Source of the DNA: a virus
DNA: 26,497 bases
Strand: one strand, 5' to 3'
Virus record (IMG/VR): IMGVR_UViG_3300045257_000081
Coordinates: 1-26,497 of that record
Positions within the stretch are counted from its first letter, which is position 1. Each line of letters starts with the position of its first letter. A program made the translations under genes and the position numbers. The notes under the pieces were generated by a model. The model was not told the origin of the DNA. It made no database searches and worked only from the letters and a program-made list of their open reading frames with translations. This document shows, in pieces, positions 2,055 through 26,240 of the stretch.

Positions 2055-2883
2055 TTTGTATGATCCATCCGTTGAAGTGTTTTATCTTTTTAGATGTAAG
2101 ACGAAGAATCATATGATACGGTAAATCGTGATCGATTGCGAACTTTCTAACACTTACATATGTACAAGTTAGTCCATCTGGTGATATAAACGTTGTACGT
2201 TGTGAACTATTTTTCTTTTTGATAAGAGCTTCGTTGGTTACTACATCCCATTTACGATGTAAAATGGGTAACCTGTGTTTTATGGCGAAAATTTTCAGGC
2301 AACCGATTAGTTCATTTTTACAAATAGACAGTTGTACATGTGATCGACAATTGATTGCTGGTTTAGATTTTATCATTATATCAAAGAAACGTATAAAAGT
2401 TTCTACCATAAAACAAAGATTATCACTCCAAACATCTTTGGCTTGAATAGATAGATGCAACTTGTCTGTATTTCTTCTTTTCGTGATAGAACCGTCTCCA
2501 TCAATATATCCAATGAACAAGGATATAAGTTGCTTATTGGAAAAGGTAAACTTTCTCCAATTGGGAGGAATTTCAGTTTTTGTGTTATGTATATCGAAAC
2601 GTTCCTTTAATTTAGGTACGTTTATAACATCATTAACCTTCAAAATACAAGATTTCGCACCGATTTTGAAATTAGTGTTTCTGAAGAATGTAGTTACATC
2701 GATTCCTATAAAACATCCTAATTTTTCTAAATGATGAGTATCAATCGATGATAATATCAATCCAAACACATCTTGTCTATTATTTTCTTTAATATTTGTA
2801 GTGACCCAACCATCGGCCATGACAAAACCGATCCAATAGAATGTTTCCAATTCTTCGGACAATAGGCGTGCTAAATTTTTCAT
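2041..2883 (-). CDS. LAGLIDADG homing endonuclease with C-terminal DNA-binding module
   Basis: This is a free-standing homing endonuclease of 280 residues. Two LAGLIDADG helices are seen: FYWIGFVMADG (15-25) and LFIGYIDGDG (122-131). The C-terminus (from SPDGLTCTY to HFNGWIIQ) resembles the small helix-turn-helix module often attached to phage homing enzymes (KFAxDHxLxxxxIxRL...HFNGW). The ATG at 2883 is chosen because GGAGAG lies 4-5 bases before it. The frame is open to a TTG at 2940 but with no ribosome site. It sits between an HNH endonuclease and gp47 and overlaps gp47 by 14 bases, so it probably inserted just before gp47. It is more AT-rich than the core genes by eye, which fits transfer. 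The cleavage target is unknown. Confidence 0.88.
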   Translation of the reverse strand: MKNLARLLSEELETFYWIGFVMADGWVTTNIKENNRQDVFGLILSSIDTHHLEKLGCFIGIDVTTFFRNTNFKIGAKSCILKVNDVINVPKLKERFDIHNTKTEIPPNWRKFTFSNKQLISLFIGYIDGDGSITKRRNTDKLHLSIQAKDVWSDNLCFMVETFIRFFDIMIKSKPAINCRSHVQLSICKNELIGCLKIFAIKHRLPILHRKWDVVTNEALIKKKNSSQRTTFISPDGLTCTYVSVRKFAIDHDLPYHMILRLTSKKIKHFNGWIIQNEEI

Positions 2884-2936
2884 AAAACTCTCCAGATATG
2901 TTGTATATATCATGGATGTTAACGACTCATTTTTTT

Positions 2937-3518
2937 TCAACCGTTTCTATTTACTATAACATCCGTGTTGATTTTTCTTAAATCATTCACTTCTTCGATT
3001 CTAGCTGAAAACGGATGATACTTAGCTTTAGCTGTCAGGTAAGCTTCTTGAGCTTCTTCCTCAGTCGGAAACGACCCCAAATATTTGACTTTACTCTTTC
3101 CATTTTCATATATTCTAATGACGGAGAAGAAATGATCACCTTTCGTTTTTGTTGTACGTCGTTTCACGCCTAGATTGCGGGGCAATAGACGATTTTGGTT
3201 ATTTTCTGATTGGGTCGCTTCTCTTAGATTCTCGAAACGGTTATCGTCCATGTCCCCATTTATATGATCTATCTGATTGACAGGCCAGTTGCCAGTATTA
3301 AGCAACCAGACGATTCGGTGAGCTAAATATTTCGTCCCGTCTAACCTGACTGCTCTATATCCCCTTTCGGATAGTCCACCGGCACGTAGTCCACGATAGG
3401 CTGCCCGCCGACCGCGACTATATTTGAAATCAGTGCGCCAATACAAATACCCAGTGCTGGCATCATATGTTAGATGTTCAAGAAAGCGTTCACGTGTTGG
3501 AAGAGTTTTCTTTGTCAT
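2937..3518 (-). CDS. HNH homing endonuclease with AP2-like DNA-binding domain
   Basis: The 193-residue protein has an HNH_3-type core: H67 in YLAHRIVWL, then IDHINGD (83-89), then N93 and N97 in DNRFENLREAT. It is followed by an AP2-like segment at about 118-175 (FSVIRIYENGKSKVKYLGSF and EEEAQEAYLTAKAKY). This two-domain layout is typical of mobile phage HNH endonucleases. A sigma70-type promoter at 3548-3576 overlaps the gp55 stop, so it has its own early transcription. AAGGG lies about 10 bases before the ATG. The downstream LAGLIDADG gene starts about 54 bases after its stop and probably shares its mRNA. The recognition site is unknown. Confidence 0.9.
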   Translation of the reverse strand: MTKKTLPTRERFLEHLTYDASTGYLYWRTDFKYSRGRRAAYRGLRAGGLSERGYRAVRLDGTKYLAHRIVWLLNTGNWPVNQIDHINGDMDDNRFENLREATQSENNQNRLLPRNLGVKRRTTKTKGDHFFSVIRIYENGKSKVKYLGSFPTEEEAQEAYLTAKAKYHPFSARIEEVNDLRKINTDVIVNRNG

Positions 3519-3547: not shown

Positions 3548-3576
3548 ATTATACACCGATACCATCTGAAATTCAA
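3548..3576 (-). promoter_or_regulatory. sigma70-type promoter for the HNH endonuclease
   Basis: On the minus strand TTGAAT (3576-3571) is followed by exactly 17 bases and a consensus TATAAT (3553-3548). It lies 30 bases before the HNH start and overlaps the gp55 stop codon. It should be read by unmodified host polymerase, so the HNH, LAGLIDADG, gp47 and gp46 genes can be transcribed early. Confidence 0.75.
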
Positions 3577-4184
3577 TCTTCCGCTTCAGAATCTCCACCA
3601 GAATCAGGACTTTCGTTATATTCTCGATAACTCTTGGTAAGAACCTCGGAACCCATATCATGTTCCTGTCCATCCTCGCGGAAATTTTCCATGTAGTTAT
3701 AGGAAGGCAGTTCACCAACACTGATCAAAATTTCATCCTTGATCGTTCGCTGTTTGGTTTCACTATTCAGATACTGGTAAAAGGCGTGCCGTAGAACCTG
3801 TGTGAAGTATGCAAACGGATTATTCGTCTTCTCCGGATTGAAACTCTTCCAGACCTTCACGATAGTTAACATGGCAAACGCTTTCATGTCTTCGTCGTAG
3901 GAATAAATTCTTTTGTAGTCGGGGTGTTTGGCGTATTTAGTACATAAGGTCTGAAGCATTTTGGCCAATTCATTGGTCATTGCTCCGGCTTCCTTACTTT
4001 TCGCCAGTTCCTTCATGAGGTCTGCGTTGTTGACGTAATTCTTCTTCTTGACAGCAAGAATGACAATAGGGGCCGCTTCCAGTGTTCCAGAGGTGGAACA
4101 CGTATCGATCTTCTTCTTGCGACCCCTCTTTTTCTTAACAACCGGTTCTGCGTTTTCTGTCTGTGGCAACTTGCTGTTTTCCAT
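3573..4184 (-). CDS. 55: gp55-like sigma factor for late transcription
   Basis: gp55 is a minimal sigma factor that binds host RNA polymerase core and recognises the TATAAATA late promoter, working with the sliding clamp and gp33. The 203-residue product contains the sigma region 2-like core at about residues 97-150: SYDEDMKAFAMLTIVKVW, NPFAYFTQVLRHAFYQYL, then QRTIKDE. T4 gp55 has 185 residues. The extra length is a Lys/Arg-rich N-terminus (KKKRGRKKK at about 17-25) and an acidic tail. The ATG at 4184 has AAGGAAA at good spacing. It has a sigma70-type promoter, as expected for a gene that must be made before late genes. The many late promoter elements in this window are its predicted targets. 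Confidence 0.9.
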   Translation of the reverse strand: MENSKLPQTENAEPVVKKKRGRKKKIDTCSTSGTLEAAPIVILAVKKKNYVNNADLMKELAKSKEAGAMTNELAKMLQTLCTKYAKHPDYKRIYSYDEDMKAFAMLTIVKVWKSFNPEKTNNPFAYFTQVLRHAFYQYLNSETKQRTIKDEILISVGELPSYNYMENFREDGQEHDMGSEVLTKSYREYNESPDSGGDSEAED

Positions 4185-4288: not shown

Positions 4289-4309
4289 GTGTATCCCAAT
4301 GGACAAGAT

Positions 4310-7145: not shown

Positions 7146-8852
7146 ATGAGCCTGACCAAATTCTATAAATTTGTAACACCCGAGACCCATCTTGCGAAGA
7201 TTCACGACAACTCGCCACAAGGTCAAGGCGGACTCTATGGTAACTATACTTGGTATCATTCGTTGGTTTACGGGTCAGCCCAGCGTCTGTCTAGATATAA
7301 AGAATATGATGCAATGGACTTGGATACGGACGTATCCGTAGCTCTCGATTTGATCGCTGGTGAAATCGTAGGCAAGACATCCAAGAACGATATCCCACTA
7401 AATCTGACGATTGAAGCCGGTAACGAGCAATATGTCAATCCTACCATGGTGGTCACAGTCAAAGCCGCTTTGCGTACATGGTGCAAGGTTGAGGATTGGT
7501 CGGTGCGTTTGTTCCCTCTTGCCCGTAACGTCATCAAGTATGGTGACTGTTTCTTCATCCGTAACAACCGTGAGAAATTCCGCCGTTCGATCTTCGTGTC
7601 GCCTCGTAATGTAACGGGTGCCTTGGTCAACGAACTCGATCACACCGACATCAAGGCGTGGCAGATTCAATATCGTTTCTTGGGTGGCGTCAATTCGACG
7701 TTCAACCAGAATGGATATAAGACAATCACCAACCCATTGATGAGTGACAATACCAACGACTTCTCCTCGTTCAATGAAATCAAGGCAGAGGACGTTATTT
7801 GGTACTCTTTGTATAACGATATGGCCGATGAAGCACCATTCGGTGTTTCCATTCTGCGAGCGATATACAAAGTCTTCAAACAGAAAGAATTGCTCGAAGA
7901 CGCGATCATCATCTATCGAATTCAACGTGCCCCAGAAAAGCGTATGTTCCGTATTGACGTAGGAAACATGCCGCCGAATCTTCGTGCTTCACACCTTGAA
8001 CAGCTTCGTAATGAAGTCAAACAGAAGCGCATTCCATCGAACATTGGTGGCGCTACACAGGTGGACTCGATCTACAACTCACAGACGATGAATGAAGACT
8101 ACTACTTCACTAAGAATGCTGCTGGTGAAGGTTCTACTGTAGAGATTCTTCCGGGTGGCCAGAATCTTGGCGAAATCCAAGACTTGGATTACTTCTATAA
8201 CAAAATGTGGCGCGGCTTGCGTATCCCCCAGTCATACATGAATGCCAACGTCGAATCTGGCCCAGCCAGCGACGGTAAGGTAGGCATCGCATATCAACAG
8301 GAAATCAACTTCACGGTGTATATCGAACGTCTTCAAAAGGCGCTGGAACACCGTTTGGATGATGAGTTCAAGAAGTTTCTAGAACGTGCTGGCATCAAGG
8401 TTGACACCACCATGTTCCGCATCACATTACCACCACCGTCCAATTACATGAAGTCGCGCGAAAACGCGATCAACAACGACTTGCTTGGCACCTATCAGAT
8501 GGCCGATGGTATTGAAGCATTGTCAAAGCGGTTTGCACAGGTCAAGTATCTCGGTCTTACTGTGGAAGAAGTTGCCATCAACGAACGCCAGAAGCGCGAA
8601 GAAATGGGTCTCAATCCGAACGGTGGCATGAAAGACTTGCCAATGATCTACAACCCAGAAGCCGCAGAACGTGGTGGCTTCGATGGTGGCTTGGCTGGTT
8701 CCAAGGGCCAGATTGGTGACGATATGTTACCGGCTGGTGGGGATGATGATAAGGGTGGCCCACCGGGTGAAGGCGGAGACGAAGGTGGTCAACCGGGTGA
8801 AGGCGCTTCTCCTGCCGATAATGGCAACGCTCCACCTCCACCTAAAAAGTGA
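7146..8852 (+). CDS. 20: gp20-like portal vertex protein
   Basis: This dodecameric portal protein is the prohead initiator, the DNA entry channel and the docking site for terminase and the neck. The 568-residue product (T4 gp20: 524) shows typical gp20 stretches: GNYTWYHSLVYGSAQRLSRY, DTDVSVALDLIAGEIVG, NVIKYGDCFFIRN, LLEDAIIIYRIQRAPEKRMF and LPGGQNLGEIQDLDYF. The C-terminus from about residue 515 is an unusual low-complexity tail of Gly, Asp, Glu and Pro (GGDDDKGGPPGEGGDEGG, ending PPPPKK), longer than I expect for T4. The order 20-67-68-21 matches T4. The ribosome binding site before the ATG at 7146 is weak (TGAGACCAGC). Confidence 0.95.
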   Translation: MSLTKFYKFVTPETHLAKIHDNSPQGQGGLYGNYTWYHSLVYGSAQRLSRYKEYDAMDLDTDVSVALDLIAGEIVGKTSKNDIPLNLTIEAGNEQYVNPTMVVTVKAALRTWCKVEDWSVRLFPLARNVIKYGDCFFIRNNREKFRRSIFVSPRNVTGALVNELDHTDIKAWQIQYRFLGGVNSTFNQNGYKTITNPLMSDNTNDFSSFNEIKAEDVIWYSLYNDMADEAPFGVSILRAIYKVFKQKELLEDAIIIYRIQRAPEKRMFRIDVGNMPPNLRASHLEQLRNEVKQKRIPSNIGGATQVDSIYNSQTMNEDYYFTKNAAGEGSTVEILPGGQNLGEIQDLDYFYNKMWRGLRIPQSYMNANVESGPASDGKVGIAYQQEINFTVYIERLQKALEHRLDDEFKKFLERAGIKVDTTMFRITLPPPSNYMKSRENAINNDLLGTYQMADGIEALSKRFAQVKYLGLTVEEVAINERQKREEMGLNPNGGMKDLPMIYNPEAAERGGFDGGLAGSKGQIGDDMLPAGGDDDKGGPPGEGGDEGGQPGEGASPADNGNAPPPPKK

Positions 8853-9583: not shown

Positions 9584-10216
9584 ATGACACAACACATTTT
9601 ACTTGTAGAGGAATACACACCAATCGAAAGCCGCATCATTGTGGAAGCTTCGACCTGTGCCAAACAAGTTCACATTCAGGGGATTTTTGCTCAAGCTGAT
9701 CTTCGCAATCGCAACAACCGTATCTACCCGTTGTCTGAGATGTTTCAAGCCATCTCTAGGGCGAATGAAGAAATCTCCCGCGAAGGCGGCATCTACGGTG
9801 AGTTGGATCATCCGGCTGGAGCAACGGTCAACCTGAAGGAAGTGTCTCATATCATCACAAGCTTGCGTGTTGAAGGCACCAACGTCATCGGGCGTGCCAC
9901 GATCCTACCAACACCAAACGGTGAAATCGCAAAGGCTCTATTCCAATGCGGTCGTCGTCCGGGTATCTCAACACGAGGTGGTGGTAAGTTGAATGAGTCT
10001 GGCATCGTAAGTGATTTCACTTTCATCACGGCTGACCTTGTAGCCACACCAAGTGCCCAAGGTGCTATGCCAGTACCGATCTACGAGTCGTTACAGCAAA
10101 CCGCACAGGGTCGTCATGTTATGACGCTTGCCGAATCGATCAAGGATGATCCAAAGGCGCAAGCCTATCTGGTCAAGGAACTGAAAGCCTTCATGGACAG
10201 TTTCATCCGCAAGTAA
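9584..10216 (+). CDS. 21: gp21-like prohead core protease (family S77)
   Basis: This protease is activated inside the prohead. It degrades the core and trims head proteins at (I/L)xE sites before packaging. The 210-residue product matches T4 gp21 in length (212). The likely catalytic His76 lies in GELDHPAG (73-80) and Ser129 in GISTRGGG (127-134), both typical of the family. FAQADLRNRNNRIYPL is another family stretch. The ATG at 9584 is used with AAGGA 8 bases upstream; the ATG at 9579 meets a stop after two codons. In T4, genes 22 and 23 follow. Here a terminator ends the unit, so the scaffold and major capsid genes lie elsewhere. Confidence 0.93.
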   Translation: MTQHILLVEEYTPIESRIIVEASTCAKQVHIQGIFAQADLRNRNNRIYPLSEMFQAISRANEEISREGGIYGELDHPAGATVNLKEVSHIITSLRVEGTNVIGRATILPTPNGEIAKALFQCGRRPGISTRGGGKLNESGIVSDFTFITADLVATPSAQGAMPVPIYESLQQTAQGRHVMTLAESIKDDPKAQAYLVKELKAFMDSFIRK

Positions 10217-10870: not shown

Positions 10871-11332
10871 ATGTCAACCGACAATCCCTCCGCCATTTCT
10901 CGTTTCTTTCGTCGAGTGCTAGGCATTCACGATACGATCCCTGAACACGATACGATCCCTGAAGTAGCGGTTCCAGATGAACAGAAGTCAACCGAAGCGA
11001 CTACACCAGTCGAGATTTATCCAGAGGATGAACCATCTTTACGAAGAGTCATCTCGGAAAAGTTGGATGACGCAATTGTCGATCCATGCCGTAGCAGACC
11101 GTTAGCCGCACTTCGGGCTGAATATGAAAAAATCGAGAACCTGATAGGGTGGGCAGAAGACCTCCCTGATGAACGCATTGGTCAGATTTATTTGAGGGAA
11201 CTCCACCAGCGGGCAAGAAGCCACAAATACTACCTCGACCATGCCGAAAGTGCGGAACGCATCAAAATTGCCGCTGCCACAATACCAGACCCACCCGGTT
11301 TCCCTGCAAAAGAGAAAGCCCGTGGAACCTGA
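10871..11332 (+). CDS. hypothetical protein with tandem HDTIPE repeat
   Basis: The family of this 153-residue protein is not recognised. It has a short basic helix at the N-terminus (ISRFFRRVLGI), a perfect two-copy repeat of HDTIPE (20-31), an acidic linker, and a helical C-terminal half rich in charged residues (LAALRAEYEKIENLIGWAED, IYLRELHQRARSHKYYLDHA). AAGGAAAATTC precedes the ATG. Its stop overlaps the GTG start of the Pth2 gene, so the two genes are probably coupled. Confidence 0.7.
   Translation: MSTDNPSAISRFFRRVLGIHDTIPEHDTIPEVAVPDEQKSTEATTPVEIYPEDEPSLRRVISEKLDDAIVDPCRSRPLAALRAEYEKIENLIGWAEDLPDERIGQIYLRELHQRARSHKYYLDHAESAERIKIAAATIPDPPGFPAKEKARGT
10928..10963 (+). repeat. perfect 18-bp tandem direct repeat (two copies)
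   Basis: CACGATACGATCCCTGAA occurs twice in a row and encodes HDTIPE twice in frame. It looks like a recent slippage duplication inside the flexible N-terminal region of the host gene. Confidence 0.9.
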
Positions 11333-11717
11333 AAACTCAGTCAAGCAGGTTATCGTTGTCCGCAAAGACTTGAACATGCGGAAGGGGAAGATTGCGGCCC
11401 AAGTGGCGCACGCCTCTATGTCGTTCCTTACTACGAGCATGCGTGGAAAGTCTGGACATCCTATTGTTATTGAGCTAACCAAAGAACAGAGACTTTGGGT
11501 GGACGGGTCTTTCACCAAAGTGGTGGTCTATGTCAACAGCGATGACGAACTATTGAGTGTACATCGAGCCGCTCACGATGCAGGGATAGAATCACATAGA
11601 ATCCAAGATTCTGGCCGTACCGAATTTAACAACGTGCCGACCTACACTTGTGTCGCCATTGGCCCGGATTTGATACAGTTAATCGATACTGTAACTGGTC
11701 ACCTTCCGCTTCTATAA
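11322..11717 (+). CDS. peptidyl-tRNA hydrolase, Pth2 family
   Basis: Pth2 frees tRNA from peptidyl-tRNA that has dropped off ribosomes. The family is usual in archaea and eukaryotes and scattered in phages. The product has about 131 residues from a GTG start at 11322. The start region VIVVRKDLNMRKGKIAAQ, then VAHAS, is the family signature. Later DSGRTEF and TCVAIGPDLIQLIDTVTG match the conserved D-(S/A)-G-R-T and AIGP elements. The frame opens further upstream (ATG 11241), but that would add 27 residues unlike the family, overlapping the previous gene. The GTG overlaps the previous stop. The gene stop (TAA) lies inside the late promoter at 11713. The next features are tRNA-Trp and peptide deformylase. 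Confidence 0.85.
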   Translation: MEPENSVKQVIVVRKDLNMRKGKIAAQVAHASMSFLTTSMRGKSGHPIVIELTKEQRLWVDGSFTKVVVYVNSDDELLSVHRAAHDAGIESHRIQDSGRTEFNNVPTYTCVAIGPDLIQLIDTVTGHLPLL

Positions 11718-11728: not shown

Positions 11729-11804
11729 ACTTCGGTAGCTCAATTGGCAGAGCAACGGTCTCCAAAACCGTAGGTTGGGGGTTCAAGTCCCTCCCGGAGT
11801 GCCA
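11729..11804 (+). tRNA. tRNA-Trp (anticodon CCA)
   Basis: A complete 76-nt cloverleaf can be drawn. The acceptor ACTTCGG pairs with CCGGAGT (one G-U). The D arm is GCTC-AATTGGCA-GAGC. The anticodon arm is ACGGT-CTCCAAA-ACCGT with U33 and anticodon CCA. The variable loop is AGGTT. The T arm is GGGGG-TTCAAGT-CCCTC. The discriminator is G and CCA is encoded. It reads UGG. A late promoter lies just upstream and a deformylase gene starts 16 bases after it. Confidence 0.96.
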
Positions 11805-11819
11805 CTTAGAAGTCATCCC

Positions 11820-12302
11820 ATGTTCACAAAGGCCATAGTGTCCATTACATCATACCCCCTCGTCAAATCCGACGATCCAGTTCTTTCAATTTGTACGCCA
11901 GTTTTCAATGGTGACTTTGAATCGTTAAGAGAGATTGCAGAACGATTGATAGGAACGCGGTACTGGAATCAAGCATTGGGCGTGGCTGCCCCACCGGTCG
12001 GACTCAGTCTTCGCATGTTCGTCATGCTGGTTGATGAATGCACCAAGGTCTTCATCAACCCTGAAATCCTTTATATGGAAACGAACGCTCTTTATCCTGT
12101 AAACGAGGGATGTCTTTCATTTCCGGGTGTCCAGATTAAAACGGCCAGAAGCGGACATATCATAGTGTCATATTGTGATTTAACCGGCAAACGTAACACT
12201 ATTCGTCTTAAAGGTCTTGAAGCTGTGTGTTTTCAACACGAACTGGATCACCTCGATGGGATAGTGTTTCATGAACGAGAAGCTGCTCTGCCTCCTGAGT
12301 AA
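11820..12302 (+). CDS. peptide deformylase-like protein with altered motif 1
   Basis: Peptide deformylase removes the formyl group from new proteins. The 160-residue product has metal motif 2 EGCLS (96-100) and motif 3 QHELDH (139-144), both intact. Motif 1, normally GxGxAAxQ, reads ALGVAAPP (52-59), with the oxyanion-stabilising Gln replaced by Pro. The codon is CCG, one base from CAG. Such a protein should bind metal but may be weak or inactive as a deformylase. The ATG at 11820 is the first one after tRNA-Trp and has only a weak AGAAG upstream. The gene is probably cotranscribed with the tRNA from the late promoter. Its 3' end is overlapped for 95 bases by a convergent homing endonuclease frame, and the C-terminus is short. 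Confidence 0.88.
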   Translation: MFTKAIVSITSYPLVKSDDPVLSICTPVFNGDFESLREIAERLIGTRYWNQALGVAAPPVGLSLRMFVMLVDECTKVFINPEILYMETNALYPVNEGCLSFPGVQIKTARSGHIIVSYCDLTGKRNTIRLKGLEAVCFQHELDHLDGIVFHEREAALPPE

Positions 12303-13104
12303 GTATCTTGTTCCATTTTCGTCTAAGCATAGGTAAATCCATCTCTTCTCCAAAAGCAAGAAGGCGAGAAATCAAACGATTTTTACTTATCCTAAGTTCC
12401 GATTGTTTACCGGCGTTGACGATTCTGACCATCATTTTTGATGGGATATTAAAGTAAGTAATGATAAGTTCTTTGAAATGGTTAAGAAATGGGAACCATG
12501 AGACATGATTTTTGATGATCAGATTCAAGCTCGACCTGTTTTTAAGTTGAATGATGCACCCATCACCGTCAATGAATCCAATTAGTACGGCCAGTTGTTC
12601 GATTGGAGTCATTCCAGAAAAAATGCATAGAGAGGGAGGATTATACGTTTTTCGTTGATGTATCTCCCATCTATCAACAAAGGCACCAATATTATCAATA
12701 TCTTTCACCGCAAGGCGATATTGAATACATGGTTCGTTCGTAAGTAGTCTTTGATAGGTTGTTTTATATCTATGAAGTGTGCAGTTGAGAAAGGATGATA
12801 GCTTCGCTAAATGTAATTTATCTATTTCAGCTACTGCAACAACCAATCGATTATCTGATATGTGACCATCAGCCAAGATAAAACCTACCCAATATAATGC
12901 TTCTAAACTCATGGTGTTAAGAAGGTGGCATCTAGTACCACGATGATATGTTGCATTGTCTCTACTAATCCCAATGCGAGCCGCCATAAGCTTTATAGCG
13001 GCTTCAGAGCGTACAAGACAGTTGGATATCTCCTTTATGTTACCGTGTGGATATTCTTTAGATAGAAATTCGATGTCCTCTTGACTCCATTTTCGTTTTG
13101 ACAT
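12208..13104 (-). CDS. LAGLIDADG homing endonuclease convergent with deformylase
   Basis: The 298-residue product has an N-terminal Myb/SANT-like helix bundle (KWSQEDIEFLSKEYPHG, then SEAAIKLMAARIGI; 5-47). LAGLIDADG helices lie at 70-80 (LYWVGFILADG) and 171-182 (LAVLIGFIDGDG). The ATG at 13104 has AGGAG 7 bases upstream. The last 31 residues or so (268-298) are encoded antisense to the deformylase gene, including its metal motif, so they are probably read-through sequence and not part of the functional enzyme. It separates the deformylase from the metallophosphoesterase, which is the likely insertion site. A late promoter inside an inverted repeat precedes it. Confidence 0.88.
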   Translation of the reverse strand: MSKRKWSQEDIEFLSKEYPHGNIKEISNCLVRSEAAIKLMAARIGISRDNATYHRGTRCHLLNTMSLEALYWVGFILADGHISDNRLVVAVAEIDKLHLAKLSSFLNCTLHRYKTTYQRLLTNEPCIQYRLAVKDIDNIGAFVDRWEIHQRKTYNPPSLCIFSGMTPIEQLAVLIGFIDGDGCIIQLKNRSSLNLIIKNHVSWFPFLNHFKELIITYFNIPSKMMVRIVNAGKQSELRISKNRLISRLLAFGEEMDLPMLRRKWNKILTQEAEQLLVHETLSHRGDPVRVENTQLQDL

Positions 13105-14341: not shown

Positions 14342-14349
14342 CATAAATA
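14342..14349 (+). promoter_or_regulatory. T4-type late promoter (CATAAATA) for the prkA module
   Basis: This is a 7 of 8 late element 60 bases upstream of the prkA ATG. A transcript would start near 14355 and could cover prkA, yeaH and spoVR. No sigma70-type promoter of comparable quality is seen in the 136-base gap. Confidence 0.75.
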
Positions 14350-14366
14350 CTCAAAGGCGAGTATTT
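14345..14366. repeat. inverted repeat over the prkA late promoter
   Basis: AAATACTC (14345-14352) and GAGTATTT (14359-14366) form a perfect 8-bp stem with a 6-base loop. The left arm is part of the late promoter and the predicted start is in the loop, so only read-through RNA can form the hairpin. It lies about 43 bases before the ATG and does not cover the ribosome site. Confidence 0.72.
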
Positions 14367-14409
14367 TGTACTGAGTGCGAAACAAAATCGGGTCACCTGA
14401 GAGGAAATC

Positions 14410-16347
14410 ATGAACAGATTGAAGTCTCTATTCCAAGATCAATTCAATTCGAAGACAAAAGAAGAGCTTTCTCTTCTGGAATTCTTGGAACGCTGTAAAG
14501 ATGATCCATCGTGTTATGCAACAGCACCAGAGCGCATGCTCAAGGCAATCGGCGAACCGACTGTCATAAACACCTCAGACACCCCACGCTTATCACGTAT
14601 CTTCTCCAATCGGAAGATCAAGGTCTATCCGGCTTTCTCAGACTTTTATGGGATGGAAGAAACCATCGAAGCAATCGTCAGCTATTTCAAGCATGCTGCT
14701 CAAAATCTCGAAGAGGCAAAGCAGATCATTTATTTGCTTGGCCCGGTGGGCGGTGGTAAGTCTAGTCTGGCCGAACGATTGAAGAAACTCATGGAGAAGG
14801 AACCGATTTACGTGCTGAAAGCAGGATCGGAATTGTCTCCATTGTTCGAATCACCGTTGGGTCTCTTTGATGCAACCACATACGGTGAGACGTTGCAACA
14901 AGAATATGGCATCCCTGAACGGTACTTGAAAGCCATCAATTCGCCTTGGGCGCAAAAGCGTTTGAACGAATTCGAAGGCGACATCACCAAGTTTTCTGTG
15001 GTTAAAATGTATCCTTCTATCATCAATCAGATTGCCATTTCAAAGGCCGAACCCGGCGATGAAAACAACCAAGATATCTCTACGTTGGTTGGTTCTGTCA
15101 ATATTAATAAACTCCAAAGACTCGGTGAAGACGATCCGGATGCTTACGGGTTCACTGGCGCGCTGAACATAGCGACTCAAGGTATCATGGAGTTCGTGGA
15201 AATGTTCAAGGCTCCAATCAAGATGCTGCATCCGCTGCTTACAGCTACACAGGAAGGCAACTATAACGGTACGCGCCGCTTTGGCTCGATTCCGTTCCAA
15301 GGTACCATCTTGGCCCATTCTAATGAGTCTGAATGGGAGACGTTCAAGAACAACAAAAACAATGAAGCATTCCTTGATCGAATCAATCTGATCAACGTGC
15401 CATATTGCTTGAGAATTGATGAAGAGAAAGAAATTTACGAGAAGATCATCCGGAATTCTGAGCTATCAGATGCACCGGTTGCGCCAAAGACGTTTGAAAT
15501 GTTGGCTCAATTCTCCATCTTGACCAGATTGCTGGAACCAAGAAATTCTGACCTCTACGCGAAACTGCTCGTGTACAACGGGGAATACGTCAAGGAAATC
15601 ATGCCCAAGGCGAAGACCCACAAGGAATACAAGGATGACGCTGGCGTAAGAGAAGGCATGGATGGCATGTCAACGCGTTTCGCCTACAAGATTCTGAGCA
15701 AGGTATTCAACCATGACAGCGATGAGGTTGCGGCCAATCCAATCCATCTCATGTATGTTTTGGAGAAGCAAATCAAGCAAGAATGCTTCCCTACCGAAAA
15801 GGAAGAGATGTACCTGTCTTTTGTCCACGGTATCATGAAAGACAAGTATGCTGAGTTTGTCGAGGAAGAACTTCAGAAAGCATATTTGGAATCCTACTCC
15901 GACTACGGTCAGAATTTGTTTGACAATTACGTCAAGTATGCTGATTTCTGGACACAGAACAACGATTATCGTGACCCTGATACAGGTGGCATGATGGATC
16001 GTGAAATGTTGAATAAAGAGCTAGAAAAAATGGAGAAACCGGCTGCCATTTCTAACCCTAAAGATTTCCGCAACGAAATCGTCAACTTTGTATTGCGTGC
16101 AAAGGCGGATAGGGGTGGAAAGAATCCAGTCTGGACTTCCTATGAGAAGCTTCGTCGTGTTATCGAGAAGCGCATGTTCTCTAATACTGAAGAACTGTTG
16201 CCAATCATCTCCTTTGAAACCAAAAAGAAGACGGCAGACGAAGAGGAAAAGCATCATAACTTCGTGGATCGCATGATTGCTCGCGGCTATACGAAGCGAC
16301 AGATTCAACTCATTGTCAATTGGTTCACGCAATACAACAAGAGCTAA
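14410..16347 (+). CDS. prkA: PrkA/YeaG-family serine protein kinase (AAA+ type)
   Basis: PrkA proteins are cytoplasmic AAA+ ATPases reported to act as Ser kinases or ATP-dependent proteases. E. coli YeaG is made in stationary phase and nitrogen starvation. The 645-residue product is full length (YeaG: 644) and looks very close to the bacterial protein. It shows SRIFSNRKIKVYPAFSDFYG (62-81), Walker A GPVGGGKSS (111-119), PGDENNQDISTLVG, IMEFVEMFKAPIKMLHPLL and GNYNGTRRFGSIPF. The C-terminal PrkA region has YRDPDTGGMMDRE, FRNEIVNFVLRAKAD and MFSNTEELLPIISF. No truncation or lost motif is seen. GAGAGGAAATC precedes the ATG. It is the first gene of a prkA-yeaH-spoVR operon behind a late promoter. 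Confidence 0.97.
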   Translation: MNRLKSLFQDQFNSKTKEELSLLEFLERCKDDPSCYATAPERMLKAIGEPTVINTSDTPRLSRIFSNRKIKVYPAFSDFYGMEETIEAIVSYFKHAAQNLEEAKQIIYLLGPVGGGKSSLAERLKKLMEKEPIYVLKAGSELSPLFESPLGLFDATTYGETLQQEYGIPERYLKAINSPWAQKRLNEFEGDITKFSVVKMYPSIINQIAISKAEPGDENNQDISTLVGSVNINKLQRLGEDDPDAYGFTGALNIATQGIMEFVEMFKAPIKMLHPLLTATQEGNYNGTRRFGSIPFQGTILAHSNESEWETFKNNKNNEAFLDRINLINVPYCLRIDEEKEIYEKIIRNSELSDAPVAPKTFEMLAQFSILTRLLEPRNSDLYAKLLVYNGEYVKEIMPKAKTHKEYKDDAGVREGMDGMSTRFAYKILSKVFNHDSDEVAANPIHLMYVLEKQIKQECFPTEKEEMYLSFVHGIMKDKYAEFVEEELQKAYLESYSDYGQNLFDNYVKYADFWTQNNDYRDPDTGGMMDREMLNKELEKMEKPAAISNPKDFRNEIVNFVLRAKADRGGKNPVWTSYEKLRRVIEKRMFSNTEELLPIISFETKKKTADEEEKHHNFVDRMIARGYTKRQIQLIVNWFTQYNKS

Positions 16348-16351
16348 CTAA

Positions 16352-17668
16352 ATGGCACATACCATCATAGACAGAACCCTTCGAAACAAAACGAAGGGTT
16401 CTACTAATCGGGCGAAATTTACCAAGAGAGCTTCTCGAAACATCAAAGAGGCTGTCAAGGACTATATCGCCAACGGTGCCGACATCAAGTCTATTTCCGA
16501 TGGTAAGCAAAAGAAAATTAAGGTGTCCAACAAAACGTTGGATGAACCTCTGATCGTCCACGGAAGCGAGTCCACAAAACGACGTGTCGTGATCGGCAAC
16601 AAAGATTACGAAGTTGGCGACCTGATAAAGAAACCTACCAAGAGCGGATCAAGCAATACCGCAGGAGATAGTGGCGAAGGTGAAGACGATTTTTATTTTC
16701 AGCTAGATCACAAGGAATTTCTGGACATATTCTTTGATGGACTGGAATTGCCCGATTTGATCAAAAAGCAGATCATGGAAGATTGCGAAATTAAACCGCA
16801 TCACAACGGATATACCACCACGGGATCGCCTGTCAGATTAGATTTGAAAAAGAGTCTGGTCAATTCCTATAAACGGCATGTTGCCATCGGCGGGGCTATC
16901 GATATAGAAATCGAAGAGTGCCAAAAACGTTTGGAGACTGCTACATCACAAGACGAAAAGGACGCTCTGCTTCTAGAAATTGCCGAACTCGAAAAGCAAA
17001 AGAACGAAGTACCTTTCCTACAAGAACTTGACCTCCGTTACCGCAATATTCTCATGGTTCCAGAACCAGCCACAAAGGCTGTCATGTTCTGTATCCTTGA
17101 CGTTAGCGGAAGCATGGAAAAATGGCACAAGGAAATAGCCAAACGCTTTTTCATGATCCTTTACCTGTTTCTGACCAAGCAATACGAGAACGTCGAACTG
17201 GTTTTTATCAAACATCACCATGCTGCATTTGAAGTCACGGAACACGACTTTTTCTATTCACGTGAAAACGGTGGAACTGTTGTTTCTGAGGCTCTAAAGT
17301 TGATCAGAGATATCATGAAAAGCCGGTATTCAAGCTCGGCATATAACTCCTATGTCTGCCAAATGAGTGATGGCGATAATTTCGGTTCCGAGGAAGAAAA
17401 CGAAAAGCTGGAAAATTTGATAGAAGAGATTCTTCCATTGGTTCAATATTTCGCGTTCGTCGATATCAAGCGTAAATTCCCACCGTTTGTTGGCGGATTC
17501 ATGACGCAATCGTCAGATGAACCGACTGAATTGATGAGTCAATACATCACAATCAAGGATAGCAACTACAAGCACGGGTATAAGTTCAACCTGCGTAGCA
17601 TTACTGCATTGGCTGACATCTATCAGGTGTTTAGAAGTCTTTTCGAAAAGAAGGTTGAAGAGAAATGA
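16352..17668 (+). CDS. yeaH: YeaH-family (UPF0229) protein with von Willebrand A domain
   Basis: YeaH is the usual operon partner of PrkA/YeaG. The 438-residue product matches E. coli YeaH (427) in length. The N-terminus (IDRTLRNKTKGSTNRAKF) is basic. A linker with GEGEDDFYFQLDHKEF leads to a VWA-like domain whose MIDAS motif DVSGS lies at 250-254 in FCILDVSGSMEKW. Later YVCQMSDGDNFGS supplies another typical VWA stretch. The metal site therefore looks intact. The gene starts 4 bases after the prkA stop and overlaps spoVR by 4 bases (ATGA). It probably bridges kinase and target in the complex; this is inference from operon linkage. Confidence 0.95.
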   Translation: MAHTIIDRTLRNKTKGSTNRAKFTKRASRNIKEAVKDYIANGADIKSISDGKQKKIKVSNKTLDEPLIVHGSESTKRRVVIGNKDYEVGDLIKKPTKSGSSNTAGDSGEGEDDFYFQLDHKEFLDIFFDGLELPDLIKKQIMEDCEIKPHHNGYTTTGSPVRLDLKKSLVNSYKRHVAIGGAIDIEIEECQKRLETATSQDEKDALLLEIAELEKQKNEVPFLQELDLRYRNILMVPEPATKAVMFCILDVSGSMEKWHKEIAKRFFMILYLFLTKQYENVELVFIKHHHAAFEVTEHDFFYSRENGGTVVSEALKLIRDIMKSRYSSSAYNSYVCQMSDGDNFGSEEENEKLENLIEEILPLVQYFAFVDIKRKFPPFVGGFMTQSSDEPTELMSQYITIKDSNYKHGYKFNLRSITALADIYQVFRSLFEKKVEEK

Positions 17669-19149
17669 CGAAGTTGAGAAGTGTCGGCGAATGGGATCAA
17701 CCACTATTGGACGCGTATTACAAGGAAATCGAAGAGATTGCAGTCAACGATTTTCAACTGTCCACCTACCCCAACCAGCTTGAAATCATCTCGTCCGATC
17801 AAATGATCGAGGCGTACAGTACCCACGCCATGCCCATCATGTACGATCACTGGCGATATGGCAAAAGTCTGGTCTCAAACAAGAACGCATATGATAAAGG
17901 TCATATGAATCTCGCGTATGAGGTGGTGATCAACAGTTCTCCATGTATTGCGTATCTGATGGAAGAGAACAGTATCACGATGCAGGCACTTGTGATGGCT
18001 CACGCGTGTTTCGGTCACAATGCCTTCTTCAAGAACAACTACCTTTTCAAGAATTGGACAGACGCAGAATTCATCATTGAATACCTGACGTTCGCCAAAA
18101 AATATATCGCATCCTGTGAAGAAAAATATGGGGTGGATACAGTTGAACGCTTTTTAGATGGCTGCCACGCATTGGAACTGCATGGTGTGGACAAGTACCA
18201 TAGACCGCGTGGGTTGACGAACATCGAAAAGGAAAAGCTGAAACTCGAAGCACTATTACACGCAGAAAAAACGTATGACGATGTCATAGAAACAACCGTG
18301 AACGCGTTCCGTCCGATTGAAGATCAGGTCTTGGAAAAGGTCGAACCACAGGAAAACATCCTATACTTCCTTGAGAAAAACGCGCCGTATTTGGAAGACT
18401 GGCAGCGGGAAGTCATCAGAATCGTGCGCAAGATTGCCCAGTATTTCTATCCGCAACGACAGACACAATTGATCAATGAAGGATTCGCTACCTTTACCCA
18501 TTACAACATCTTGAACCGGCTCAATGAAAAGGGGCTAGTGACGGACGGGTTCATGCTTGAATTCTTGGAATCGCATACGGCTGTCACTGCACAGCCAACA
18601 TTTGACCATCCATACTATGCCACTATGGGCATCAACGTGTATTCACTAGGATTCAGGATGTTCCAAGACATCAAACGTATCTGTATGGAGCCGACAGCCG
18701 AAGATAGAGAATATTTCCCCGATTTTGCCGGTAACGGAGACTGGGTCAAAACGACGCAATGGGCCATGAAAAATTTCAGGGATGAGAGTTTCATCCTTCA
18801 ATTCTTATCACCGCATCTGATTCGCAAATATAGAATGTTCGCCGTCGAGGATGAACCAAATGTATCCTACGTGAAGATTACTGATATCCACAACAAAAAA
18901 GGATATCTTAATATTCGAGAAAAGTTGGCGAAGATGTTTGATATTATGGAAAGAATCCCAAATGTGCAGGTTACGGACGTTGAACAAAAATCTCGTCGTC
19001 TCACTTTAACGCATACATCCAACGATTGCGTCAAGTTGGACGCCTCTAATATCGGTCTAGTTTATGAATATCTCTGTGAAATGTGGAAGCTCCCCGTCAG
19101 GATAGTATCCGTGGACGCCAATGGGAAACCATTCGATCTAATCGAATAA
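17665..19149 (+). CDS. spoVR: SpoVR/YcgB-family protein
   Basis: SpoVR is named from Bacillus spore cortex formation, and YcgB is the E. coli member (510 residues). The molecular function is unknown. In many bacteria it clusters with prkA and yeaH. The 494-residue product has the typical stretches MPIMYDHWRYGKSL (56-69), NLAYEVVINSSPCIAYLMEEN, VMAHACFGHNAFFKNN, QTQLINEGFATFTHY (with a metalloprotease-like glutamate) and YYATMGINVYSLGFRMFQDI. No lesion is seen. It overlaps yeaH by ATGA and ends the module. A dual promoter for the next unit follows at once, and no terminator was found. Confidence 0.96.
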   Translation: MTKLRSVGEWDQPLLDAYYKEIEEIAVNDFQLSTYPNQLEIISSDQMIEAYSTHAMPIMYDHWRYGKSLVSNKNAYDKGHMNLAYEVVINSSPCIAYLMEENSITMQALVMAHACFGHNAFFKNNYLFKNWTDAEFIIEYLTFAKKYIASCEEKYGVDTVERFLDGCHALELHGVDKYHRPRGLTNIEKEKLKLEALLHAEKTYDDVIETTVNAFRPIEDQVLEKVEPQENILYFLEKNAPYLEDWQREVIRIVRKIAQYFYPQRQTQLINEGFATFTHYNILNRLNEKGLVTDGFMLEFLESHTAVTAQPTFDHPYYATMGINVYSLGFRMFQDIKRICMEPTAEDREYFPDFAGNGDWVKTTQWAMKNFRDESFILQFLSPHLIRKYRMFAVEDEPNVSYVKITDIHNKKGYLNIREKLAKMFDIMERIPNVQVTDVEQKSRRLTLTHTSNDCVKLDASNIGLVYEYLCEMWKLPVRIVSVDANGKPFDLIE

Positions 19150-20532: not shown

Positions 20533-20835
20533 AATATCTGGGGAAGACTGGCCGTATTGACCCCCAATCGTGGTAAAAGCTACGATTGGGGTTTCATCAC
20601 ATCATTCCAAGAATCTCTCTTGCTGAAAACCGGAGACACCATTTCCAGATATGATAGTCTCGGTAACCTGTTGGAAACGGTTATTCTGGAATTCGACGAG
20701 TCTGATACATATTCTTTAGGCCAGAACTTCAGACGAAGGCTGGTCGATAGGATAGCATATCCTTTAGAGAACTTGTTTCTCTCCAATGCATATGTTAAGC
20801 TTACAAGAGATTATGCGGATGTGGTGGAATGGTAG
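20512..20835 (+). CDS. hypothetical protein overlapping the tRNA-Leu 5' end
   Basis: The family of this 107-residue product is unknown. It reads as a plausible soluble protein (IWGRLAVLTPNRGKSYDWGF, YDSLGNLLETVILEFDE). The ATG at 20512 lies at the predicted late start site and inside a hairpin, with no ribosome binding site. An upstream in-frame ATG at 20476 also lacks one and would overlap the previous gene. The last 7 codons, including the stop, run into tRNA-Leu, which is unusual and could mean the true gene was extended or that processing of the tRNA destroys this mRNA. Confidence 0.5.
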   Translation: MNVSFIENIWGRLAVLTPNRGKSYDWGFITSFQESLLLKTGDTISRYDSLGNLLETVILEFDESDTYSLGQNFRRRLVDRIAYPLENLFLSNAYVKLTRDYADVVEW

Positions 20836-21392
20836 TCACGATAGGTCGAGGGCCTATTGCCGTGAGGCGTGCAGGTTCGAGTCCTGTCATCCGCACCAAC
20901 TTTTGAGTTCTTGACGCCCCATGTTGGCGTCTGTTGATGGCAATTTGGGCACAGAAATCTCATATTACAAAGACGGTTATCGTTATTCTTACCATTGACA
21001 TGGTCTAGATGTAGTGTAAGAGGCCGACCACACCATTCAGGTAACAACCCACAAATTTCGCAAACGTATGGCTTCTCTCGTTTAAGAATTTTGCGCAATC
21101 TGCCCGCTGTTACATGATATTGAGGATTCTCTACAAGAATGAGAGCTTCATCCGTTTCTATGTTTCTGGAGTTTTTCTCGACAATAGGATGGGTTTCGCG
21201 CGTATAACCTTTAGCCCATCCTTTACCGGTGAAATGTGTTATATCTAGGTCATGTCGAGCTATCAGTTTCGAAAAATGACAGTAAGAACCACCACTCGGT
21301 TTTAGGTTGAAATATAAAAATAACTGATTCATGGATGTACAGTTTTTAACGGCTTCGGATAAAACTTCTTTGGTGTATCGAATATTTCTCAT
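20811..21392 (-). CDS. HNH homing endonuclease beside tRNA-Leu
   Basis: The 193-residue frame has an HNH core: CEICGLLPEW (zinc knuckle half), LHLDHVNGKNNDNR and MRFLCPNCHQQTPTW. The N-terminus (TKEVLSEAVKNCTSMNQLFL, then YFNLKPSGGSY) is a helix-turn-helix type segment common in phage HNH proteins. The last 28 residues or so, from GADDRTRTCTP on, are the antisense reading of tRNA-Leu, so the natural end is probably near 20905. GAGG precedes the ATG by about 10 bases. A late promoter inside an inverted repeat lies upstream. Insertion next to a tRNA gene is a usual homing site. Confidence 0.88.
   Translation of the reverse strand: MRNIRYTKEVLSEAVKNCTSMNQLFLYFNLKPSGGSYCHFSKLIARHDLDITHFTGKGWAKGYTRETHPIVEKNSRNIETDEALILVENPQYHVTAGRLRKILKREKPYVCEICGLLPEWCGRPLTLHLDHVNGKNNDNRLCNMRFLCPNCHQQTPTWGVKNSKVGADDRTRTCTPHGNRPSTYRDYHSTTSA
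20815..20898 (+). tRNA. tRNA-Leu (anticodon GAG), class II, with C33
   Basis: This is an 84-nt cloverleaf. The acceptor GCGGATG pairs perfectly with CATCCGC. The D arm is GTGG-AATGGTAG-TCAC. The anticodon stem is ATAGG/CCTAT with loop TCGAGGG, giving anticodon GAG but C at position 33 instead of the near-universal U. The long variable arm TGCCGTGAGGCGT forms a GCC/GGC stem. The T arm is GCAGG-TTCGAGT-CCTGT. The discriminator is A and CCA is encoded. A convergent HNH frame runs antisense through the whole gene. Confidence 0.93.
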
Positions 21393-21495: not shown

Positions 21496-21963
21496 ATGAA
21501 GCACTTCAAAGCCCCTGAAGCGAATACAACTGACCTGTTCACCGTTTTCCTTGCTGGCTCCATCGACATGGACAAGGCTGAGAAATGGCAGAACCGGGTT
21601 GTCGAAGAACTGAAAGACTTTGATGTTGCCATCATGAACCCACGCCGTGACGCATGGGACGCAAGCTGGAAACAGGAAGTCTCCAATCCCAAGTTCTTTG
21701 AACAGGTCGATTGGGAATTCAAGAACCTCGAAAAATCCAAACTCATCTTCCTCTACTTTACCGCCGATTCCAAGGCTCCTATCAGTCTATTGGAATTGGG
21801 TCTGTTCGCAGATTCCAAGAAACTTATCGTGTGTTGCCCGAAAGCCTATTGGCGTCATGGTAACGTTGAATACATCTGCAAACAGTTCAAAATCCCTCTC
21901 TTTGACACTTTCGAAGCTGCCATCAAGGCGACCAAGAAAGAACTCTTCGCCTACGGAAAATAA
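21496..21963 (+). CDS. nucleoside 2-deoxyribosyltransferase-like protein
   Basis: Members of this family exchange or hydrolyse the base of deoxynucleosides or nucleotides. The 155-residue product shows FTVFLAGSIDMDKAEKWQ (15-32), NPRRDAWDASW (48-58), FFEQVDWEFKNLEKS and the typical PISLLELGLF (95-104), whose Glu is the expected nucleophile. Length and motifs fit the short phage/bacterial form. A role in nucleotide turnover during infection is inferred. It is the first gene of an operon with a sigma70-type promoter; its stop overlaps the next ATG (TAATG). Confidence 0.8.
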   Translation: MKHFKAPEANTTDLFTVFLAGSIDMDKAEKWQNRVVEELKDFDVAIMNPRRDAWDASWKQEVSNPKFFEQVDWEFKNLEKSKLIFLYFTADSKAPISLLELGLFADSKKLIVCCPKAYWRHGNVEYICKQFKIPLFDTFEAAIKATKKELFAYGK

Positions 21964-22343
21964 TGAAATATCGAAGCCGCAAACTTATCATGCCATCCCA
22001 CTTGAACGGGGCCAACACTCTGTTCGGTGGTCAAGCATTGGCGTGGATTGACGAAGAAGCGGCCATCTATGCTGCATGTCAGACCAGAACTGCCAGCCTC
22101 GTAACCAAGGTCATGAGTGCCATCGATTTCAAGGCTCCGGCACATCTCGGAGATATCATCGAAATTGGAACAGACCTCGTGAAGATTGGACGAACGTCCA
22201 TTACGGTTTCTGCTACAATGCGCAACAAATCCACCAAGAATGTCATCTTGACGGTCGATGAGATTGTCTTTGTCTGTGTGGATGCGAACGGAACACCAAC
22301 GCCTCACGGCATCACAGAAAAACTCATTGAGGAAGATGAATGA
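21963..22343 (+). CDS. hot-dog acyl-CoA thioesterase (YciA-like)
   Basis: The 126-residue product has the hot-dog signature near the N-terminus: LIMPSHLNGANTLFGGQALA then WIDEEAAIYAA (8-38). The central AIDFKAPAHLGDIIEIGTDL and RTSITVSATM strands are typical of YciA-type acyl-CoA thioesterases. It would hydrolyse CoA thioesters in the cytoplasm. A phage role is not clear: possibly lipid or CoA metabolism. It is coupled to both neighbours by overlapping start and stop codons (TAATG before, ATGA after). Confidence 0.87.
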   Translation: MKYRSRKLIMPSHLNGANTLFGGQALAWIDEEAAIYAACQTRTASLVTKVMSAIDFKAPAHLGDIIEIGTDLVKIGRTSITVSATMRNKSTKNVILTVDEIVFVCVDANGTPTPHGITEKLIEEDE

Positions 22344-22657
22344 TTAAGATATCCCCACTACGTGATCAGCTTGTGGTCATCGTGAACGAACGTCAAACGC
22401 AAACTGCCGGTGGTATCCAATTGGTCGAACGCGCAGGCTCTTCCAGCACTCTCCCTTCCTCTGGTAAGGTCATCGCAGTTGGGCCGGGTGCAACCGATAA
22501 GAATGGCATTACACAACCGATGGATATCGAAGTCGGCCACACAGTTCTTTTCCACAAGAGCAGCGGCATTAAGCTTCCGGGAGAGTCGATTTCTGACTTT
22601 ACCGATTACCGTATCATGCGCCACGAAGACGTACTAGCAGTCTTGGTAGATTCGTGA
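22340..22657 (+). CDS. GroES-like co-chaperonin
   Basis: The 105-residue product fits GroES (97) and T4 gp31 (111). It begins IKISPLRDQLVVIVNER and has a mobile-loop region at about 20-36 (TAGGIQLVERAGSSSTL). Then come GKVIAVGPG, VGHTVLFHKSSGI and the C-terminal DYRIMRHEDVLAVL, all typical of GroES. It looks closer to bacterial GroES than to gp31. In T4, gp31 replaces GroES so that GroEL can fold the major capsid protein; the same role is likely here. No GroEL gene is in the window. ATGA overlap with the thioesterase. Confidence 0.93.
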   Translation: MIKISPLRDQLVVIVNERQTQTAGGIQLVERAGSSSTLPSSGKVIAVGPGATDKNGITQPMDIEVGHTVLFHKSSGIKLPGESISDFTDYRIMRHEDVLAVLVDS

Positions 22658-23272: not shown

Positions 23273-23995
23273 ATGAACATTTCGCCTGCTCTCAGCAAGA
23301 AGATAGCTATCACAAAAAAGTTCAGTAGTCTTGTCAAACGTTTGACGACTAAGGTGCAATTCTCTGCAAACCAAGTAAGAGGGTTCATGCTCGGATTGAG
23401 TGGAACGGATTCTATCGTAACTTACTTCTTATTGAACGAAGTGGCAGCGAAAGAGGGGTTTCTAGTTCATGGCGTTCATTATGTCGAATCAGAGACAAAA
23501 CCGACCCCATTCCAGCGTGATGTTTTACCGTGGTTACGAAACGCGTGGCCGAAATCCAGTGTTACTGTAGCTATACCACCGGGCGGGAATTACGACCAAT
23601 ATCGCTGGGGTGATATACATTATCGAGCGTTGAATAGTGTTGGCAGGTATTGGATTGCGAACACAACGAATGCCACGGAGAAAGCACTGGGAACGTTCGG
23701 CATCATGGCTAACAGTGCGAGTATATCTCCAATCATCTCACTCTATAAAAGTGAAATCCTACAACTGTGTGAGATTTGGAACGTTCCACAGGAAGCCATT
23801 CAACGTTCGCGTCTCCCGGATTGTCTGTGTGGACGCGATGAATTCGCCGCTGAGAACATCGACCTGATCGATGAAGTTCTCAGAAACAACTTGACCAAAG
23901 ACTACCCGGCAGACGTGTTGCGTAAAGCGATGGACTACATTCGCGACACCAAGCGTGCCAACGATTTCAAGAACAGAACGCCGTACAACGTTTGA
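23273..23995 (+). CDS. NAD synthetase-like ATP pyrophosphatase (NadE-like)
   Basis: NadE amidates nicotinate adenine dinucleotide to NAD+. The 240-residue product resembles the NadE synthetase domain. The PP-loop is GLSGTDSIVT (41-50), where the usual SGGxDS has lost one residue (SGTDS). NTTNATEKALGTFGIMA (130-146), SPIISLYKSEILQLCEIW (152-169) and the VPQEAIQRSRLPD end match NadE. No glutaminase domain is present, as in ammonia-using forms. The short PP-loop makes activity uncertain; another adenylating function is possible. It lies in a tight operon with a BtpA-like barrel and a dioxygenase. Confidence 0.75.
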   Translation: MNISPALSKKIAITKKFSSLVKRLTTKVQFSANQVRGFMLGLSGTDSIVTYFLLNEVAAKEGFLVHGVHYVESETKPTPFQRDVLPWLRNAWPKSSVTVAIPPGGNYDQYRWGDIHYRALNSVGRYWIANTTNATEKALGTFGIMANSASISPIISLYKSEILQLCEIWNVPQEAIQRSRLPDCLCGRDEFAAENIDLIDEVLRNNLTKDYPADVLRKAMDYIRDTKRANDFKNRTPYNV

Positions 23996-26232: not shown

Positions 26233-26240
26233 CATAAATA
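26233..26240 (+). promoter_or_regulatory. T4-type late promoter (CATAAATA)
   Basis: This is a 7 of 8 late element 34 bases before a small ORF at 26274. The resulting transcript could end at the hairpin at 26446-26471, giving a short RNA of about 225 bases. Confidence 0.65.

Follow-up and report, generated by a model that had tools for sequence, protein, structure and literature searches.

The window analysed here, a viral contig of 26,497 nt from IMG/VR, carries three intact, full-length open reading frames, all on the plus strand, that form a tight prkA-yeaH-spoVR operon. The first (14410..16347) encodes a PrkA/YeaG AAA+ ATPase of 645 aa, with matches to the Pfam AAA_PrkA (8e-168) and PrkA C-terminal (1e-63) domains and to NCBIfam PRK15455. 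The second (16352..17668) encodes a YeaH/DUF444 vWA-MIDAS protein of 438 aa (Pfam DUF444, 3e-127; predicted vWA fold) and the third (17665..19149) a SpoVR/YcgB-like protein of 494 aa, which matches Pfam SpoVR (2e-147) and SpoVR_C (1e-8) and NCBIfam PRK11767. A 4-base gap (16348-16351) separates prkA from yeaH, and yeaH and spoVR meet in an ATGA overlap (17665-17668). All three products exceed their NCBIfam equivalog cut-offs, PrkA scoring 1101 bits against a cut-off of 576 for PRK15455 and SpoVR 681 bits against 679 for PRK11767; 251 of 480 aligned residues are identical between the window SpoVR and E. coli YcgB. The complete trio and its tight spacing, described in an earlier note made from the sequence without database searches, are thus confirmed by the reading frames and by both profile collections.

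The same note had read the Walker A, MIDAS and SpoVR stretches as intact and this too holds, the key residues being invariant across alignments of phage and bacterial sequences. PrkA combines its AAA_PrkA and C-terminal domains with an intact Walker A motif, GPVGGGKSS, read from the sequence at residues 111-119 (14740..14766, plus strand), of which G111, P112, G114, K117, S118 and S119 are invariant in 26 sequences. YeaH is a full-length DUF444 protein with a complete MIDAS of the pattern DxSxS...T...D, comprising DVSGS at residues 250-254 (17099..17113, plus strand) together with T309 and D340; D250, S252, S254, T309 and D340 are invariant in 52 sequences. SpoVR, assigned by its SpoVR domain, C-terminal domain and equivalog score, contains two stretches of candidate metal ligands on the plus strand, an HxxxxH motif (H113 and H118; 18001..18018) and an NEGxAxxxH motif (E272 and H279; 18475..18501). 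These four residues, along with H62 and H168, are invariant in all 52 sequences aligned.

That the operon resides in a T4-like phage, as was originally suggested, is borne out by its neighbours. The contig encodes a T4-type portal protein (7146..8852, plus strand; phrog_213, 1.8e-82), a gp21 prohead protease (9584..10216, plus strand; phrog_207, 4e-53), a gp55-like late sigma factor (3573..4184, minus strand; phrog_234, 1.7e-24; match to the XacN1 late sigma factor, 4.6e-45) and a gp47-like protein; the portal, protease, sigma factor and a late-type motif place it in the T4 superfamily. Direct DNA search gave no near relatives among named phages. By portal, the closest named phage is Xanthomonas phage XacN1 (49.7%), which with the Stenotrophomonas phages CM1 and RAS14 makes up the nearest named relatives (48-50%). 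The window and XacN1 are partly collinear, sharing the late sigma factor, portal, protease, a PTH2-type peptidyl-tRNA hydrolase, a phosphoesterase and GroES, whereas the phosphoesterase-GroES interval holds the trio in the window and other small genes in XacN1. Searches with PrkA, YeaH and SpoVR found the trio absent from XacN1, CM1 and RAS14; since these are the nearest named phages by portal, the trio is therefore accessory in this phage group.

Trio-bearing phages are already present in public records, both gene by gene and jointly. A phage collection searched with each gene gave 16 records with PrkA, 11 with YeaH and 9 with SpoVR; the whole trio was present in several phages of Thermus and in 600-kb huge phages. 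Single members are annotated in some large phages, as the earlier note has it, and phiYS40 carries all three, annotated as a conserved bacterial protein, SpoVR and a serine kinase. A scan of viral contigs identified 130 PrkA relatives. Among the best 80, which were picked by PrkA similarity and hence provide no measure of trio frequency among phages, 61 have the full trio (>80% coverage) and 18 run off the end of their contig. The trio, when searched for as a whole, was accordingly complete at 61 of 62 assessable IMG/VR loci, as well as in phiYS40 and huge phages; the one incomplete locus, L007, clusters with host DNA of Enterobacterial type. In 54 of the 61 complete loci the genes run contiguously and share one order. 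Among 50 contigs tested, a T4-type portal was found in 8 and gp55 in 6, with a full TerL match on most of the same large contigs; most of the others are short fragments, viral by IMG/VR assignment alone. In the literature searched, no paper describes the trio as a module of phages and, among phage papers, only that on RsoM2USA turned up. Enterobacter phage LAU1 (MN688132.1, L162) was considered as a further example and rejected. Its 'complete' genome opens with a host-like yeaG-yeaH pair (1-3308) that lies at the record end and clusters with Enterobacteriaceae, probably the host flank of an excised or integrated Enterobacter prophage.

Trees built with bacterial homologues of PrkA, YeaH and SpoVR, as had been proposed, recover largely matching phage groups, here termed clades A, B and C. 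In the concatenated tree their support is 98 (SH-aLRT) for A, which includes the window, 99 for B, which lies beside Alphaproteobacteria, and 100 for C. These trees assign the window to clade A, that of jumbo T4-superfamily phages. Because the window forms a long branch, where exactly it belongs within clade A is less certain than the clade itself; YeaH and SpoVR, each taken singly, link it only weakly to clade A. Grouping the window with gammaproteobacterial sequences was rejected (p-AU 0.013), as was a single clade of all phage copies (p-AU about 4e-82). With one phage clade rejected and three recovered, the module has therefore crossed between bacteria and phages on more than one occasion, and the tree topology indicates that phages acquired the trio at least twice and then passed it on as one unit. 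Estimates of dN/dS range from 0.02 to 0.14 for all three genes, wherever phage pairs allowed an estimate; these values are rough, many dS being near saturation, and refer to pairs of relatives, the window itself being too divergent to include. They indicate purifying selection on the trio in the window's phage relatives. A very recent one-off capture with decaying relatives, the outcome that would have counted against the module, is contradicted by the separate phage branch, the low dN/dS and the 61 of 62 complete loci. By these comparisons the operon is host-derived, and its residence in the jumbo T4-superfamily clade has lasted long enough for a branch of its own to develop. As the trio has stayed intact in related giant phages over a long time, it is therefore a real and repeatedly acquired phage tool of putative function. 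That unrelated phage groups keep the trio together and intact suggests that it functions as one unit and benefits the phage within a single infection.

The bacterial prkA-yeaH-spoVR operon shares with the window the three families, the gene order and the tight spacing, at identities of about 65% for PrkA, 40% for YeaH and 50% for SpoVR. Linkage varies in bacteria, E. coli having yeaG-yeaH with an unlinked ycgB, and Vibrio, Pseudomonas and others having all three linked. The window differs from the bacterial operon in being phage-encoded, in its separate long branch and in the gp55-type late motif upstream. The Ralstonia jumbo myovirus RsoM2USA (MG752970) encodes SpoVR as ORF28 and PrkA as ORF30 and, by its published description, the interval between them fits a YeaH gene; the genes are listed singly there, YeaH is unnamed and the module is not recognised (PMC8504454). 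Thermus phages phiYS40, TMA, MN1, Lalka8/27 and phiLo also have DUF444/vWA, SpoVR and PrkA genes together (in TMA and Lalka27 as known from search matches only). However, they belong to an unrelated phage group, their PrkA identity is ~26-29% and their gene order is vWA-SpoVR-PrkA. The 600-kb huge phages LR745206, LR756504 and LR756502 are closer in sequence (PrkA 59-60%, YeaH 38-40%, SpoVR 46-48%) but form the separate clade C, with a leading upstream motif other than ATAAATA, and in LR756502 SpoVR is unlinked.

A T4-type late promoter -10 motif, CATAAATA (14342..14349, plus strand), lies 68 bp upstream of the prkA ATG. Nine of the ten NATAAATA sites in the window have a gene start no more than 120 bp downstream (expected 7%, p=5e-10), and the tenth, at 26233, is close to the contig end. 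With no motif preselected, no 7-mer was more enriched ahead of ORFs than ATAAATA in clade A and B relatives; in the same comparison it was not the top upstream motif in clade C and was not enriched in bacteria. In the clade C huge-phage loci L163-L165, L063, L064, L069 and L080, ATATATA tops the upstream motifs, replacing ATAAATA. The enrichment in clades A and B and the site placement in the window establish that the late-promoter motif is real in this phage group, in which NATAAATA is a genuine late-promoter signal. The earlier note, which placed the operon under a late promoter, was thus right about a motif before prkA, but late timing does not extend to the relatives: NATAAATA was found within 150 bp of prkA in none of the 8 clade A relatives tested. 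Six of these 8 instead have a sigma-70 promoter at prkA, with 17-bp spacing, a -35 element of TTGACA or TTGACT and at most 2 mismatches (shuffle p 0.007-0.097 each). A comparable promoter is present at prkA in one clade B locus, L014. Perfect TTGACA-16/17-TATAAT sites are frequent between genes near the module in L002, L004 and L009; the window has a single strong site of this type between genes, located elsewhere than prkA. By this promoter comparison we rejected the idea that late expression is conserved. Because the nearest relatives mostly use sigma-70 promoters at prkA and lack the late motif there, prkA timing has probably changed in the window's own lineage. The window operon sits within the structural (late) gene block; its putative late control, read from the promoter motif, goes with that position and looks derived.

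To our knowledge, the biochemical role of bacterial YeaG/YeaH/YcgB (PrkA/DUF444/SpoVR) is not settled. The predicted fold of YeaH matches vWA domains in the PDB, both integrin-type and Rea1-MIDAS, the latter being the MIDAS domain of an AAA+ protein. The predicted SpoVR fold, mostly helical (pLDDT 82), matches nothing solved in the PDB, and the fold search lent no support to SpoVR having a known fold of the protease or zincin kind. PrkA, termed a kinase in the earlier note, has no protein kinase domain of the Hanks Ser/Thr type among its Pfam matches, and the purified B. anthracis protein proved to be an AAA+ ATPase, its kinase activity undetectable and its protease activity negligible (PMC13001217), making the 'kinase' label doubtful. 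In E. coli, yeaG and yeaH are functionally linked under N starvation (PMC4664914). Under selection in excess iron(III), E. coli populations acquired the mutations yeaG E555* and ycgB H127Y (PMC10044975); H127 of YcgB aligns with H118 of the window SpoVR, the second, invariant histidine of HxxxxH. SpoVR is therefore a probable metalloprotein, an idea that, as its fold has no PDB match, draws on the conserved residues and this one selected mutation.

The explanation that we consider best, and hold tentatively, is that a phage-supplied AAA+/vWA pair remodels SpoVR and thereby maintains stressed host cells in long infections. PrkA would form an AAA+ ATPase ring with YeaH as its vWA/MIDAS partner, in a mode like that of MoxR-type pairs such as NorQ/NorD, which inserts iron into a client enzyme (PMC9976466). 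Together they would remodel or activate SpoVR, with its predicted helical fold, invariant His/Glu set and probable bound metal. The phage would bring its own stress machine because host expression is shut down in a long infection, so that a starved or stressed cell stays productive; RsoM2USA, which bears PrkA and SpoVR, has a latent period of 270 min (PMC8504454). On this proposal the trio would be neither a virion part nor a protein kinase cascade. The proposal follows from the ATPase activity of PrkA, the predicted vWA fold of YeaH, the NorQ/NorD precedent and the SpoVR residues with H127Y. Adjacency and conservation are observed and point, with the predicted folds, to complex formation, a metal and a role in infection, all of which we infer. 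The MoxR-type pairs (NorQ/NorD, RavA/ViaA) likewise place an AAA+ ATPase gene beside a vWA/MIDAS partner, and it is from this gene adjacency and the predicted fold that a similar coupling of PrkA and YeaH, perhaps in chaperone-like client maturation, is proposed by analogy. However, PrkA is from another AAA+ family and has a C-terminal domain of its own, and nothing in MoxR systems corresponds to SpoVR.

Several other readings of the module have been weighed against this remodelling proposal. It could instead, as suggested in the earlier note, impose or mimic a starvation (RpoS-type) state late in infection, redirecting the host. Under N starvation, bacterial YeaG does influence both rpoS expression and the state of the population (PMC4664914) and the window phage has a late motif, but such a takeover is unlikely, given that all 8 clade A relatives tested lack that motif at prkA, most having sigma-70 promoters, and that dormancy imposed late has no obvious benefit to the phage. 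Early-type promoters in relatives are compatible with a role in counter-defence, by which the module would suppress toxin-antitoxin systems or growth-arrest responses of a similar kind. In E. coli, mqsRA and dinJ/yafQ are transcriptionally repressed by YeaG, and a phage copy could silence such systems (PMC4664914). This effect is seen in starvation only, by an unexplained mechanism, and although yeaG E414K swept in T7-selected E. coli (PMC10044975), it did so in one population alongside several other mutations. A PADLOC search returned no match for PrkA or YeaH and one marginal, partial match for SpoVR, on which a defence-system reading of the trio was rejected. We regard counter-defence as quite unlikely.

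A contribution of the AAA+/vWA/SpoVR set to the assembly or packaging of large capsids is suggested by gene position, the set lying between the portal/minor head and TerL genes in Thermus phage Lalka8, near TerL in phiYS40 and, in the window, ~4 kb beyond the prohead protease and preceded by the late motif. In 364- and 342-kb T4-type contigs, however, it lies ~57 and ~82 kb from the portal, respectively, clade A sets are mostly behind sigma-70 promoters and the window proteins match bacterial stress equivalogs, all of which render morphogenesis improbable. IMG/VR does include misassigned host contigs, LAU1 apparently being such a record, so host DNA contamination or a passive recent pickup of host genes has to be considered. 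The 26 kb of the window also encode portal, protease and gp55 and have late-type motifs throughout; with a long phage branch and relatives under purifying selection besides, the chance of either is very slight.

A more far-reaching statement of the remodelling proposal, itself unlikely in this full form, is that the trio constitutes a metal-dependent machine of jumbo phages, taken from bacteria at least twice and switched in its timing between early promoters of host type and late ones of gp55 type. If true, phages would provide a natural experiment on YeaG/YeaH/YcgB function, i.e. iron- or metal-linked activation of SpoVR. The phage trio in any case offers a compact place for probing the function of the PrkA/DUF444/SpoVR system.

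Other features of the window were recorded alongside the operon. A 931-aa protein between the late sigma factor and the portal (4289-7084, plus strand) has no Pfam, PHROGs or NCBIfam match; XacN1 ORF302, of similar length and in the same position, has no detectable sequence similarity to it. Four homing-type endonucleases are scattered over the 26 kb, all on the minus strand (2041-2940, 12208-13104, 2937-3518 and 20811-21392); two are related to phrog_4645, one of these with a LAGLIDADG match, and two are HNH enzymes. A tRNA-Leu(GAG) (20815-20898) overlaps the end of an HNH gene. Four further genes, all on the plus strand, encode the PTH2-type peptidyl-tRNA hydrolase (11241-11717), a nucleoside 2-deoxyribosyltransferase-like protein (21496-21963; 1e-32), a GroES-like co-chaperonin (22340-22657; Cpn10, 5e-19) in the same relative place as in XacN1, and a protein (23273-23995) that matches mainly the C-terminal half of NAD synthase and may be incomplete or a fusion. 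Directly after the hydrolase gene lies a tRNA-Trp (11729-11804) with its own TATAAATA.
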